Source: Caldilinea sp. CFX5
GTDB taxonomy: Bacteria; Chloroflexota; Anaerolineae; Caldilineales; Caldilineaceae
Reading direction: 5' to 3'
DNA length: 64,000 nt
NCBI GenBank assembly: GCA_021405325.1
Contig: QWII01000007.1
Span: 124,001-188,000, forward strand
This document shows, in pieces, positions 5,461 to 61,812 of the stretch (within the stretch, counting starts at the first letter, position 1; every line of letters starts with the position of its first letter). A program made the translations under genes and the position numbers. The notes beneath the pieces are model-generated. The model was not told the origin of the DNA. It made no database searches and saw nothing but the letters and a program-made list of their open reading frames with translations.

Positions 5461-5544
5461 AAACAAGGAAACAGGTAGACAGGTACACAAGTCGATAGGA
5501 GCAATCCCCTGTTTACCTGTGTACTTGTCTACCTGTCTACCTAC
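5461..5544. repeat. Octamer array with inverted arms, class AGGTAGAC
   Basis: Left array of AGGTAGAC/AGGTACAC-like units (about 5468-5494) and an inverted array of TACCTGTG/TACTTGTC/TACCTGTC units (5513-5543). The arms can pair imperfectly into a long hairpin. It lies 20 bases beyond the 3' end of the SRP RNA and directly ahead of the phosphatase gene. The same unit class is found 56 kb away at 61717-61812. Confidence 0.8.
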
Positions 5545-5563
5545 ATAAAAAACTCGTGTGCTT

Positions 5564-5693
5564 TCATCGCCTCGCCAGAACGCCAGGCTGCCCTATGTCA
5601 CCCAGAACGTTCTGCTTACCGTTGCTGCCTTCCGACCCTGGCGGGGTTCACAGTGTCCTGCCGCACAGGACCCAGCGCCTGACGAAGCGATGA
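5564..5693 (-). ncRNA. ffs: Signal recognition particle RNA (small bacterial type)
   Basis: On the minus strand the conserved domain IV is plain: CCAGGGTCGGAAGGCAGCAA (about 5622-5641), with the GGAAG symmetric-loop bases and the GGAAGGCAGC right side. The ends form a closing helix of about 13 pairs between TCATCGCTTCGTC (5693 side) and GGCGAGGCGATGA (5564 side), including G-U pairs. Length about 130 nt. A run of six T on the minus strand (5546-5551) follows the helix, as in an intrinsic terminator. The RNA binds Ffh and targets ribosomes to the membrane. Confidence 0.92.
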
Positions 5694-5705
5694 AAACACA
5701 CGAAT

Positions 5706-5785
5706 CTAGTGAATCAGTGGGACAGTGAGTCAGTAAATCAGTGAAAACTGTCTGACTGTGTAACTGTCTAACTGAGTTACTGCCA
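5706..5785. repeat. Octamer array with inverted arms, class CAGTGANN
   Basis: Left part reads CAGTGAAT, CAGTGGGA, CAGTGAGT, CAGTAAAT, CAGTGAAA; right part reads ACTGTCTG, ACTGTGTA, ACTGTCTA, ACTGAGTT, ACTG. The two parts are inverted relative to each other. It begins two bases beyond the tRNA-Ser 3' end (minus strand) and lies between that tRNA and the SRP RNA. Confidence 0.8.
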
Positions 5786-5787
5786 AC

Positions 5788-59005: not shown

Positions 59006-59009
59006 AGCA

Positions 59010-59072
59010 ACAGTTCAGCGGTAGGTGCGTTGGTTGAGCCTGTCGAAACCAACGCACCTACCGCTGAACTGT
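59010..59072 (+). terminator. 26-bp perfect inverted repeat
   Basis: Arms 59010-59035 and 59047-59072, perfect complement, loop 11. Starts five bases after the glycosyltransferase stop. No T-run. Confidence 0.6.
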
Positions 59073-59130
59073 CTACTCGATTTCCTAACCTTATTCGCCC
59101 TATCATTGACGGAATTGGCAGGAAGAAACT

Positions 59131-61719
59131 ATGCAAGCACCACCAGAAAAACTTGGCTCCTTTTATCTTGGCGCTGAATATGATTTGAAGAGCGGACAAC
59201 GGAGTGAGGCCGCCGTCAACTATGACGCGCGCGACCTAACCACTCACGCCGTCTGTGTCGGCATGACGGGTAGCGGGAAGACGGGGCTTTGCATCGGCCT
59301 GTTGGAGGAAGCGGCGTTGGATCGGGTGCCGGCCATTCTGATCGATCCCAAAGGGGACATCACCAACCTCCTGCTCCAATTCCCCAACCTGGCGCCCCAG
59401 GATTTCCAGGCTTGGATCAACGAAGATGACGCCCGGCGCAAGGGGCAGACCGTCGAAGCTTATGCCCAAACCACGGCTGAACAGTGGCGCAACGGGCTGG
59501 CCGACTGGGGTATTACGCCGGAACGAATGCGCGCCTTGCAGGAGACCACCGAGTATACCATCTTCACCCCTGGCTCGGATGCGGGCGTCGCCATCAACAT
59601 TGTCGGCAGTCTGGCCGCGCCCGGCTTGGATTTTGCCGAACATGGCGAGTTGATTCGGGAGCGCATCAGCGGCACCGTCTCGGCGCTGTTAGGGCTGGTG
59701 GGCATCGACGCCGACCCGGTGCGCAGCCGCGAAGCAATTTTGCTCTCTAAAATTTTTGAACATTTCTGGTCACAGAATAAAAACCTTGATCTGGCGCAAC
59801 TGATCCTCGCCATCCAGACGCCGCCGGTGCGTCAGTTGGGCGTTTTTGATGTCGATACCTTCTTCCCAGAGAAGGATCGCTTTGCCATGGCGATGTCCTT
59901 CAACAACCTGATCGCCTCGCCCAGTTTCCAAAGCTGGCTCCAAGGCGAACCGCTGGATATTGACCGCATCTACTTCACGCCGGAGGGCAAACCGCGCCAC
60001 AGCATCTTCTACATCGCCCACCTGAGCGACCAGGAGCGCATGTTCTTCATGACCCTGTTGCTGGAAAATATCTTGACCTGGGTGCGCCGCCAATCGGGGA
60101 CGACCAGCCTGCGCGCCATGCTCTACATTGACGAAATCTTTGGCTATTTCCCGCCCACCGCCGAGCCGCCTTCCAAACGCCCCTTGTTGACACTTTTGAA
60201 ACAAGCGCGCGCCTTTGGCGTGGGCGTCGTGTTAGTGACACAGAACCCAGTCGATCTGGACTACAAGGGCTTGACCAACGCCGGCACCTGGTTTATCGGC
60301 AAATTGCAGGCCGAACGGGACAAGGCGCGCGTCCTCGAAGGGTTGAAGGGCGCCATCGCCGAGTCGGGCGGCAACACTGAAGTCGATTATGACAGCATTA
60401 TCACCCAACTGGGCAGCCGCGTCTTTTTGTTGCACAATGTTCACGCCGATCGTCCGGTGGTTTTCCAAACGCGCTGGGCCATGAGTTATCTGCGTGGCCC
60501 CTTGACGCGACCACAGGTGCGCCAACTGATGGCTGGTCGTTTGGCGAAGATGCAGAATCAGGCCACACCAGCCCGCCCGCCGGCCACGGTGACAAGCAGC
60601 GCAGCCCCGGCGCCGGCTGCTGCCGCTCCTGCCGGTCAACCGGCGCCGGTGGCAACGGTCGCCGCACCGGCTGGTTTTGCCGCCACCCCGCCGACCCTTG
60701 ACCCCGACGTGACCCAGGTCTACCTGCCGGTTGTCGTCAGTGACCAGGCGGCACTACGCTATTTGGGGCAAGAGACCAAGCGCTCGATCCAGCCGGAACA
60801 GGTTCATCTGATCTACGAGGCGGCGATTCTCAGTCATTCCTCTGTGCGTTTTGTCGACCGCAAGCGTCAACTGGATGAAAATCTGGAAAAGCTGCTGCTT
60901 GCCCCGGCGCCAGAAGGGGTCGAAGGAGTCGATTGGTCGCTGGCCGAGGCGTTGACCTTTACGACGCGTGAGCTACGCCAGGCGGCCGAGACGGCGCCGA
61001 CGGAGCAGGGGCCGTTCTTTAGCCCGGCGCCCGAAGCGGCCAATTCGAGCCGTGAACTGGCCGGTATCAAGAAAGATTTGGCGGATTGGTTGTACTATAA
61101 TAGCCGGCTGCAGTTCCAGACCCATGAAGAGTTGGGCGTTTCGCAAGCGCCGCGTGAAAGTGAGCGGGAGTTCAAAATCCGTTTACAACAGGTCGCGCGT
61201 GAACGCCGCGATGCTGAAGTTGATAAGCTGGAAGTGGGCTTTGATCGGCAGATCGGCCGCCTGGAAGAAAAATTGCGCAAGACCGAGCGTGAACTGGCCG
61301 CCGATGAAGCCGATTACAGCGCGCGCAAACAGCAGGAGTGGGTCGGCATCGGCGAAAGCGTGTTAAGTTGGGTGCTGGGTCGCCGCAGTACACGCGTCCT
61401 CAGCAGCGCGGCCAGCCGGCGCCGCATGACGGCCAATGCCGGCCAGGAATTAGAGGAAGGCCGCGAGGAGATCGCTGATCTCAAGCAGGAGATCGCCAAC
61501 CTGGAGCAGCAACTCAAAGAGCAGAGCGAAGAGATCACCCTGAAATGGGACAGCCTGCTCGATGACCTGAGCCAGACCGAACTCTCCCCCCGCCGCACCG
61601 ACATTGATGTCAAGCTCGTCGCCCTGGCCTGGCTCCCCTCCTGGGTGATTCAGTATCACGACGGCCAACGCTTGCGCAATGACACGATTGCGGCGTATCA
61701 GTTACCGGCGGTGGGGTAG
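59131..61719 (+). CDS. HerA/DUF853-like ATPase with coiled-coil tail
   Basis: An 862-residue protein. Walker A GMTGSGKTGLCIGLL at about 45-55, followed by ILIDPKGDITNLL (Walker B-like HerA feature), then SLRAMLYIDEIFGYFPPTAE carrying a Walker B (YIDEIFG) and VGVVLVTQNPVDLDYKGLTN (sensor). After an Ala/Pro-rich linker (PARPPATVTSSAAPAPAAAA) the C-terminal 220 residues are coiled-coil (QIGRLEEKLRKTERELAADE, EEIADLKQEIANLEQQLKEQ). Such ATPases are linked to DNA processing or conjugation-like pumps; no nuclease partner (NurA) is nearby. The stop TAG sits at the edge of an AGGTAGAC array. Confidence 0.85.
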   Translation: MQAPPEKLGSFYLGAEYDLKSGQRSEAAVNYDARDLTTHAVCVGMTGSGKTGLCIGLLEEAALDRVPAILIDPKGDITNLLLQFPNLAPQDFQAWINEDDARRKGQTVEAYAQTTAEQWRNGLADWGITPERMRALQETTEYTIFTPGSDAGVAINIVGSLAAPGLDFAEHGELIRERISGTVSALLGLVGIDADPVRSREAILLSKIFEHFWSQNKNLDLAQLILAIQTPPVRQLGVFDVDTFFPEKDRFAMAMSFNNLIASPSFQSWLQGEPLDIDRIYFTPEGKPRHSIFYIAHLSDQERMFFMTLLLENILTWVRRQSGTTSLRAMLYIDEIFGYFPPTAEPPSKRPLLTLLKQARAFGVGVVLVTQNPVDLDYKGLTNAGTWFIGKLQAERDKARVLEGLKGAIAESGGNTEVDYDSIITQLGSRVFLLHNVHADRPVVFQTRWAMSYLRGPLTRPQVRQLMAGRLAKMQNQATPARPPATVTSSAAPAPAAAAPAGQPAPVATVAAPAGFAATPPTLDPDVTQVYLPVVVSDQAALRYLGQETKRSIQPEQVHLIYEAAILSHSSVRFVDRKRQLDENLEKLLLAPAPEGVEGVDWSLAEALTFTTRELRQAAETAPTEQGPFFSPAPEAANSSRELAGIKKDLADWLYYNSRLQFQTHEELGVSQAPRESEREFKIRLQQVARERRDAEVDKLEVGFDRQIGRLEEKLRKTERELAADEADYSARKQQEWVGIGESVLSWVLGRRSTRVLSSAASRRRMTANAGQELEEGREEIADLKQEIANLEQQLKEQSEEITLKWDSLLDDLSQTELSPRRTDIDVKLVALAWLPSWVIQYHDGQRLRNDTIAAYQLPAVG

Positions 61720-61812
61720 GTAGACAGGTAGACAGGTACACAGGTAAATACGTCCTGTCTACCTGTGTACCTGTGTACCTGTGTACCTGTCTACCTGTTT
61801 ACCTGTGTACCA
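61717..61812. repeat. Octamer array with inverted arms, class AGGTAGAC
   Basis: Left TAGGTAGACAGGTAGACAGG and ACACAGG units (61717-61745), right CCTGTCTA/CCTGTGTA repeated seven times (61755-61810). Same unit as 5461-5544. Starts with the HerA-like stop codon and ends before the next ribosome site. Confidence 0.9.

Follow-up and report, generated by a model that had tools for sequence, protein, structure and literature searches.

Short-unit arrays and hairpins in the window

The window, the whole 64,000-nt stretch that was analysed (contig QWII01000007.1, positions 124,001 to 188,000; whole-window numbering is used below), comes from Caldilinea sp. CFX5, an uncultured bacterium, and contains tandem arrays of short units that mostly fold into hairpins. 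On the minus strand, a solo hairpin of the AGGTAGAC class (5468–5545; folding z −7.5) lies 33 nt beyond the 3′ terminus of the SRP RNA, and a diverged inverted array of the CAGTGA class (5702–5782; weak, z −1.6) lies 6 nt behind tRNA-Ser. A AGATTGAG-class hairpin (5935–6099; z −11.1), whose loop contains another perfect palindrome, is located behind a sulfotransferase-family gene (6107–6835); a TACGAAT-class hairpin (6855–6932; z −10.8) adjoins the stop codon of an RraA-like gene (6934–7668); and a second AGATTGAG-class hairpin (15487–15553; z −6.5) overlaps the stop codon of a VIT/VWA gene (15553–18111). Behind the HMG-CoA reductase gene (9692–11035) is a single-arm array of the TAGTCG class (9640–9686), which forms no hairpin; an extra array, 10068–10099, lies inside that gene. 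The remaining minus-strand hairpin is of the AGACAAGA class (50098–50239; z −3.5), and one of its arms (50189–50239) is read through by the ORF for a sensor kinase/response regulator (50170–52419).

Plus-strand hairpins include one of the AGATTGAG class (21843–21898; z −4.5) between two adjacent ABC-transporter genes (20011–21840 and 21917–23842), one of the GTCGTTTA/GTCGCGTG class (34673–34836; z −7.9), one of the CTCTGTGG class (36285–36391; z −3.9) between two PmbA/TldD genes, and one of the AGGTAGAC class (61717–61811; z −6.6). The stop codon of gene 33813–34685 falls within the first arm of the second of these, at 34685, and that of gene 59131–61719 within the last, at 61719. The 3′-end status of a AGATTAAG-class hairpin (19191–19264; z −9.0) is uncertain because the 95-residue ORF upstream (18921–19208) has no Pfam match. 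The exception to 3′-end placement is a single-arm TACGAAT-class array (18176–18208, no strand assigned) in a divergent spacer.

These arrays are real. They were located across the whole window by TRF and an autocorrelation scan of our own, which marked 14 segments in the window and none in each of 10 order-4 Markov simulations; the scan misses the weaker arrays at 5702, 9640, 19191, 21843 and 36340, all five of which TRF lists. Period 8 is dominant, with period 7 at 6856 and 18178. The arrays lie at the places stated in an earlier note made from the sequence, which gave units of 8 bp, sometimes 7. Its description of all 14 loci as hairpin-forming holds for 11, which fold with z ≤ −3.4 relative to shuffled sequences (segments from 5463, 5932, 6853, 15484, 19188, 21838, 34670, 36280, 50092 and 61714, with the values given above, and the segment 31380–31998 described below); the segments at 5700 (z −1.6, diverged arms), 9636 (z −0.7) and 18174 (z +2.4) fold weakly or not at all, the last two being single-arm. 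It had placed 13 loci at 3′ ends, within about 20 bases. Supported 3′ ends number 12 of 14 (SRP RNA, tRNA-Ser and ten coding sequences, two of which, 33813–34685 and 59131–61719, have no Pfam match), the array at 18178 being in a divergent spacer and that at 19192 uncertain; the stated distance is exceeded by the array 33 nt from the SRP RNA.

A PF05635 gene between two arms

Directly behind the stop codon of a PhyH-family gene (30456–31382) lies an array of eight AGTGAGAC units (31384–31449, plus strand), whose inverted partner, seven CTCACTGT units, occupies 31943–31995 (inverted-repeat score 39). The two are the arms of one long-range hairpin (z −7.8 for 31380–31998, from only 20 shuffles). 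The earlier note had recorded both arrays and missed the gene that they enclose, 31452–31940 on the plus strand (likely start ATG at 31479), which encodes a four-helix-bundle protein of the IVP family. It matches Pfam PF05635 at 7.3e-33 and TIGR02436 at 1.5e-31, has 2rld and 2gsc as relatives in the PDB, and scores 3.5e-10 against the Avd model NF033474, below that model's cut-off. The element 31384–31995 thus holds a PF05635 ORF within inverted repeats, as 23S rRNA intervening sequences (IVSs) do; its site is behind a protein gene and not in an rRNA helix. This loop gene links the arrays to IVP elements.

Placement behind gene 3′ ends in relatives

Enrichment at 3′ ends and turnover were assessed in relatives of the window organism, two of which, denoted G008 and G003, served for placement. 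In 320 contiguous kb of G008, a stretch not picked for array hits, 38 of the 44 intergenic elements are no more than 30 bp from a 3′ end, against a mean of 9.8 and a maximum of 20 under random placement (5000 draws), and none lies between divergent genes, where 8.0 were expected. The corresponding count in G003 is 21 of 31 against 7.3, with a divergent deficit at p = 0.07; the G003 pieces and the C3 pieces of G008 were partly picked for array hits. Non-intergenic elements (6 of 50 in the G008 stretch and 11 of 42 in G003) were left aside, and genes were called with a home-made caller whose start codons are approximate. Some congeners have arrays in divergent spacers (g50/51 and g210/211). One class recurs at many G008 loci, with 102 matches of a 17-mer (at most one mismatch, overlapping matches counted). 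Dispersed tandem 7-bp units between genes, an excess at stop codons and a divergent deficit are the features of STRR and heptameric repeats; all are found here, where units of 8 bp occur as well.

The 5′ arm is purine-rich in 30 of 35 G008 hairpins (3 are below one half) and in 17 of 17 in G003. Single-arm arrays are purine-rich in the gene sense in 7 of 14 and 8 of 15 cases, that is, with no strand preference. As a palindrome is also the same on both strands, a purine-first rule was set aside as a sign of transcript function. It was also considered that the units might provide stop codons in every reading frame.

Turnover at orthologous sites

Congeners sharing about 75–92% gene identity carry, at the same sites, different hairpins, single arms or nothing, and unit numbers differ between species. 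The detector flagged only S1 in G008, G014 and G016, S3 in G016 and G008, and S4 in G008; several other hairpins at these orthologous sites were assigned by visual inspection. Hairpin sites turn over rapidly, by gain, loss and class replacement beyond what slow slippage alone would give. At each of seven IVP sites, no fewer than three congeners (at S4), or four or five, are without an intact IVP, and several of them have a solo hairpin in its place. At site S4, two species share an IVP segment with 463 of 470 positions identical, against 827 of 928 in the downstream gene, and two congeners have solo hairpins that match the outer portion of the element's 5′ arm. At S2, congener G017 has a unit-sized sequence that resembles the G016 array. 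No transposition was seen, and visual inspection of the compared pairs showed no target-site duplication.

The checks proposed in the earlier note accordingly gave 3′-end enrichment far beyond the random-placement null in two relatives, and orthologous loci with and without arrays. Its argument for a process that generates or spreads hairpins, rather than slippage, is borne out in part, by the 3′ placement and by gain, loss and class replacement at orthologous spacers.

IVP genes in array loops across phyla

Of 31 IVP ORFs, 22 have inverted-repeat scores of at least 14 and 17 have scores of at least 20; among 194 control ORFs the corresponding numbers are 6 and 1. Matching arms no more than 50 bp from the IVP ORF, or overlapping its ends, are seen at many loci. 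Pairing between the arms of one locus exceeds pairing across loci in the Chloroflexota relatives plus window (n = 27, 4 of 31 loci having been dropped for short flanks; mean 42.9 against 17.7, with 21 loci above the cross-locus 95% level), in a phylum-wide Chloroflexota set (n = 30; 31.1 against 18.2, 12 loci), in Pseudomonadota (n = 30; 40.5 against 19.2, 18 loci) and in a plasmid set (n = 18, 17 of them cyanobacterial; 40.1 against 27.0, 5 loci). The last figure is low because the plasmid loci share one unit class. In each of the four sets, the observed mean was reached by 0 of 20,000 permutations. Loci were cut out for 30 of 45 hits in one search and for the 30 best-hit genomes in each of two further searches; the plasmid loci represent 18 of 21 hits (all except H18, H20 and H21), another 15 loci being outside the analysis. 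The phylum-wide Chloroflexota signal is weaker than the other support: scores of at least 14 occur in 12 of 30 IVP ORFs and in 12 of 100 other ORFs from these loci, some of which may themselves be adjacent to arms. IVP genes thus occupy array loops in three phyla (Chloroflexota, Pseudomonadota and, on plasmids, cyanobacteria) and in one 23S rRNA gene, that of Azospirillum lipoferum (L278), where the stem is built of repeats. Apart from this locus, 0 of 90 IVP loci lie in rRNA, so the rRNA link rests here on one case and the literature. In another 23S IVS, tandem heptamers directly precede the IVP ORF and an RNase III site falls at the first repeat, as PMC4990558 reports.

The upstream gene is co-directional with IVP at 30 of 30 Pseudomonadota loci, at 23 of the 26 Chloroflexota loci where a gene was called no farther than 600 bp away and, more weakly, at 11 of 17 cyanobacterial plasmid loci (nearest annotated gene). 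Two IVP pairs have dN/dS of 0.14 and 0.04; the S4 pair has no synonymous difference in the compared part and so gives no sign of purifying selection. IVP/S23 proteins are described as having no known function (PMC4990558), and that paper reports that the S23 ORF of its own IVS is decaying and probably unexpressed. Within one genus, IVP loci have different arm classes; arm class is uncoupled from IVP sequence, so that IVP could have entered existing hairpins.

Array density shows a non-significant trend with IVP presence (p = 0.10): 12 elements in 318,537 bases (6 of 20 genomes) of IVP-positive genomes, hand-picked as 20 of 80 and often carrying several IVPs, against 2 in 297,659 bases (2 of 20) of IVP-negative ones, the first 20 of 221 and mostly smaller genomes. 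Stretches below 20 kb and two without G or C (L344 and L356) were kept in this comparison. A reverse transcriptase (RVT_1) is present somewhere in 7 of 13 IVP-bearing genomes; its action in trans was therefore rejected as a general rule. Defence-system models gave no match, and no IVP was confirmed in viral contigs. Among the titles and abstract openings listed by literature searches, none joins IVP genes to intergenic arrays.

Interpretation

On balance, we lean towards seeing in the arrays the stems of IVS-like elements, most of them solo and some carrying IVP, placed mostly right behind the 3′ ends of genes and RNAs. Each would be a small, fast-changing palindrome of the form short-unit array, loop, inverted array, settling where its transcription as a hairpin does no damage to the preceding gene or to the following gene's start site. 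Solo hairpins and single arms would make up the majority. In a minority, the loop would contain a gene for a PF05635 protein (IVP/S23, four-helix-bundle, Avd-like), usually pointing the same way as the upstream gene; 23S rRNA IVSs that carry an IVP ORF would share this architecture, sited in an rRNA helix. Stem and IVP may move as a unit, RNase III may cut the transcript hairpin as it does in 23S IVSs, and IVP may promote homing to hairpins or their upkeep.

An unlikely alternative, although the strongest, makes the IVP cassettes the mobile part, homing into loops of pre-existing hairpins, both arrays behind genes and rRNA helix tips, while the arrays arise and spread otherwise. The varying arm class within one genus fits this, as do the S4 arm, which looks as if a second element had entered the loop, and the 23S IVSs, which take the place of rRNA helix tetraloops (PMC4990558); yet matching arms lie close against or across the ORF ends at many loci, and an informal look revealed no separate cassette ends.

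Improbable, in our estimate, are host-selected 3′-end structures, whether terminators or 3′ stabilisers, that slippage and template switching would produce locally, with IVP genes merely tolerating such places. They would account for the 3′ anchoring, for hairpins behind SRP RNA and tRNA-Ser, for a hairpin kept at orthologous sites though both arms change class, and for the G017 sequence at S2. A stable hairpin at a gene 3′ end is, moreover, what an intrinsic terminator presents. The canonical form of the earlier note's selection as terminators is nevertheless not supported: T-tracts (4 or more T among the following 8 nt) show no excess, occurring after 5 of 30 hairpins against 13.7% of random positions, and after 1 of 10 against 10.9% in another comparison, and 19 of 30 G008 hairpins end 8–22 bp short of the start codon that follows, where a promoter would have little space. 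Congeners without a hairpin at the same site, single arms on either strand and the strong IVP association also speak against host selection. Plain microsatellites, arising by local slippage and tolerated only between a stop codon and the next ribosome-binding site, are scarcely credible: they would explain differing unit numbers, but not the presence of a second, inverted arm, the recurrence of a class across many loci, class replacement at a fixed site or depletion in divergent spacers, and presence/absence pairs had already disfavoured them.

Beyond the reading as IVS-like elements, 23S rRNA IVSs, the heptamer arrays of cyanobacteria and Xanthomonas, and the 3′-end hairpins could tentatively be united, at somewhat less than an even chance, in one superfamily of short-unit palindromes entering the loops of hairpins and the 3′ ends of genes. 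The IVP/Avd-like protein would be its homing or structure-recognising factor and the solo hairpins its non-autonomous majority. PF05635 genes in array-hairpin loops behind ordinary genes of three phyla place IVP in one context with the heptamer arrays, which were noticed long ago. The layout hints at small genetic elements of a kind that is widespread but has drawn little attention; that they may shape the 3′ ends of mRNAs in many genomes is a hypothesis that can be tested.

Comparison with known systems

Cyanobacterial STRR are 7-bp intergenic repeats, grouped with the heptameric repeats as a similar system. REP/REPIN sequences with RAYT are palindromes dispersed behind genes, as the present elements are, but the latter have no fixed REP sequence and their arms are short-unit arrays. 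The GGGNATC heptameric repeats of Xanthomonas and Nostoc (PMC4692102) are likewise intergenic 7-bp units, found chiefly on the sense strand close to stop codons, with a deficit between divergent genes and, in Xanthomonas, with inverted pairs; 83% are kept between the two Xanthomonas, whereas the present arrays turn over rapidly, comprise many classes of 7 and 8 bp, lie about half in long hairpins (in G008) and are linked to IVP genes. The (GATAGRA)n satellites of Chloroflexus aurantiacus are also heptamer arrays scattered over a Chloroflexota genome, but form one family, and the consulted part of their description (PMC6749651) has no hairpin, 3′-end or IVP links. The TAACTGA repeats of Beggiatoaceae (PMC4679880) are short-unit intergenic arrays common to distant phyla, but direct repeats, mostly just before start codons in the main genome. 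IVP resembles the Avd protein of diversity-generating retroelements (DGRs; PMC10053308), although its match to the Avd model is below cut-off. With 23S IVSs carrying an IVP/S23 ORF, the present elements share an inverted-repeat stem around a PF05635 ORF, repeat-built in the Azospirillum case; unlike them, they lie behind protein-coding and small-RNA genes, in many copies per genome and mostly without an ORF.

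Arrays in the window

Tandem arrays of 7–8-bp units, many with an inverted second arm, were recovered by TRF and by our own autocorrelation scan of the window at the positions claimed for them in an earlier note; the same scan found no array in ten sequences simulated from the window with an order-4 Markov model. Folding z-scores were −3.4 or lower at 11 of the 14 window loci, those at 5700, 9636 and 18174 showing no significant folding. The earlier note had placed 13 of the 14 arrays at 3′ ends, which holds for 12, located behind the SRP RNA, tRNA-Ser and ten coding sequences; the array at 19192 follows an uncertain ORF, and that at 18178 is located in a divergent spacer.

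One array arm is traversed by the ORF at 50170–52419 (sensor kinase/response regulator), giving the product a repetitive C-terminal tail. An in-frame array (10068–10099) lies within the HMG-CoA reductase gene, where it encodes a portion of an inserted segment at a variable loop of the protein; the corresponding gene at locus L001 carries a hairpin array (10428–10500) at the equivalent position in the protein. The reductase of the window shares 75, 73 and 69% identity with proteins from Chloroflexi/Caldilineaceae MAGs, which suggests a Caldilineales-like Chloroflexota as the source of the window. The loop of hairpin 5935–6099 contains a perfect 14-bp palindrome (5966–6075), the 13-base arms of which are absent from all other loci collected. 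A 35-bp tandem repeat (56577–56689; 3.2 copies, 98% matches) lies just upstream of the gene starting at 56706.

Placement and turnover in related genomes

Placement statistics refer to relatives of the window organism rather than to the organism itself, namely the genomes G008 (7.7 Mb, genome of L008) and G003 (genome of L003). The main sample, 320 contiguous kb of G008 chosen without regard to hits, held 50 elements, of which 44 were intergenic; 38 of these lay no more than 30 bp from a 3′ end, compared with a mean of 9.8 and a maximum of 20 in 5000 random placements, and divergent spacers held none, against 8.0 expected. With a further, partly hit-selected 80 kb of G008, 45 of 54 were near a 3′ end (null 12.3) and 2 were divergent (10.8 expected); the G003 stretches, also partly hit-selected, gave 21 of 31 (null 7.3) and 3 (6.8 expected, p = 0.07). 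Arrays in divergent spacers do occur in some congeners of G008 (gene pairs g50/51 and g210/211).

Selection as terminators had been one option for such hairpins in the earlier note. In tandem spacers of G008, 19 of 30 hairpins end 8–22 bp upstream of the next called start codon, and T-tracts are not enriched after the hairpins of G008 (5/30 versus 13.7% of random positions) or of G003 (1/10 versus 10.9%). This spacing, together with the T-tract counts, argues against canonical terminators.

Across 121 orthologous spacers from 55 gene pairs, comparing G008 with its congeners (G013–G017), an array was detected in both genomes in 18, in G008 alone in 17, in the congener alone in 11 and in neither in 75. 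The g217/218 spacer is 23 bp long in G008, and G016 has a GAGATTG hairpin there directly after the stop codon; at g70/71, congeners carry GTAATTAG, GAGATTG or CGCAAAG hairpins, with a short inverted repeat alone in G008 and G015; at g98/99, six species present four unit classes. Enrichment at 3′ ends over random intergenic placement, a check named in the earlier note, is borne out in these relatives; among congeners, arrays are gained and lost at orthologous loci and unit classes are swapped.

An IVP gene in array loops

The ORF at 31452–31940, between arms 31384–31449 and 31943–31995, matches PF05635 (23S_rRNA_IVP, 7.3e-33) and the NCBIfam family 'four helix bundle protein'; its relatives in the PDB are 2rld and 2gsc. 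PF05635 matches were found in 13/17 relatives versus 0/14 control genomes. For every ORF, the highest-scoring inverted repeat joining its upstream and downstream flanks was taken. Scores of at least 14 were obtained for 22 of 31 IVP ORFs (the window ORF and 30 of the 45 PF05635 hits in relatives), versus 6 of 194 similar-sized ORFs, and scores of at least 20 for 17, versus 1.

A stricter control drew the paired upstream and downstream flanks from different loci. Mean scores within and across loci were 42.9 and 17.7 for Chloroflexota relatives plus the window (n = 27; 21 above the cross-locus 95% level), 31.1 and 18.2 for Chloroflexota phylum-wide (n = 30; 12 above), 40.5 and 19.2 for Pseudomonadota (n = 30; 18 above) and 40.1 and 27.0 for the plasmid set (n = 18; 5 above), and in each of the four sets the within-locus mean was never attained in 20,000 permutations. 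The low plasmid count arises because one unit class is common to many loci; the class varies between IVP loci except in cyanobacteria. The phylum-wide set is also weak by the inverted-repeat score (at least 14 in 12/30 versus 12/100 other ORFs).

The nearest upstream gene is co-directional with the IVP gene at 30/30 Pseudomonadota and 23/26 Chloroflexota loci, and by annotation at only 11/17 cyanobacterial plasmid loci. The gene that follows encodes, by annotation, a tyrosine recombinase or integrase at 6 of these 17 (L263, L264, L269, L274, L275 and L277) and a DDE-type integrase at L270. At the Pseudomonadota IVP locus L318 (87–182), an SRP RNA gene lies about 1.3 kb away; one window array also stands behind an SRP RNA.

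Orthologous IVP sites within the genus

Seven IVP sites were compared across the genus of G008, with hairpins partly classed by eye. At L178, G008 has the gene, G017 a GAGATTG hairpin, G013 a CAGTATT array, and G015 and G016 further apparent hairpins, G014 not being readable. L197 has the gene in G008 and G017, short spacers in G013 and G014, and in G015 and G016 two other ORFs, toxin–antitoxin-like by eye and without arms. S1 has it in G017 and in two pieces in G008, with GAATTATG hairpins in G014 and G016 and a single-arm array in G013; S2 has it in G016, with a unit-sized trace alone in G017, a few GGTTATC units in G008, a short spacer in G014 and no array in G013. At S3 it is present in G015 and G017, with solo hairpins of other classes in G016, G014 and G008 and a short apparent hairpin in G013; at S5 it is present in G014, with other genes in G008, G015, G016 and G017 and a short array-free spacer in G013. 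S4 carries it in G014 and G017 (the latter copy split over two contigs), G013 has none, and solo hairpins in G008 and G016 match the outer 5′ arm. S4 can be read either way, as stem and gene travelling together or as a gene entering existing hairpins.

The IVP segment is identical at 463/470 positions in the S4 pair (downstream gene 827/928), at 385/405 in the S3 pair (versus 348/400 and 608/689) and at 469/523 in the L197 pair (versus 452/500 and 540/622). With dN/dS values of 0.14 (L197) and 0.04 (S3), two of the three pairs suggest that the protein is kept; the S4 pair has zero synonymous differences in the part compared and so gives no ratio.

Comparison with 23S rRNA intervening sequences

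The simplest account of the arrays would be a palindromic element resembling the intervening sequences (IVSs) of 23S rRNA, with a short-unit array as its stem, mostly without an IVP gene and at times with one. IVP presence follows array density only as a non-significant trend (p = 0.10). A reverse transcriptase partner was rejected as a general feature, being found in just 7 of 13 IVP-bearing genomes.

PF05635 occurs in 80/301 Chloroflexota and 57/398 Pseudomonadota genomes. Its plasmid records are cyanobacterial in 20 of 21 cases, mainly from Nostocales, in which heptamer arrays are well known. Such arrays in Nostoc are described in PMC4692102. The sole non-cyanobacterial plasmid record, from Azospirillum lipoferum (L278), has its IVP within 23S rRNA (RF02541), and the stem there consists of 7–8-bp repeats. 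The insertion place is presumably helix 45. None of 90 other IVP loci scanned, a set outside the cyanobacterial loci, has an rRNA location. PMC4990558 describes another IVS, inserted in helix 45 and regarded as selfish, which is excised by RNase III and bears an S23/IVP ORF that is probably not expressed and decaying. Tandem heptamers stand immediately 5′ of that ORF (PMC4990558).
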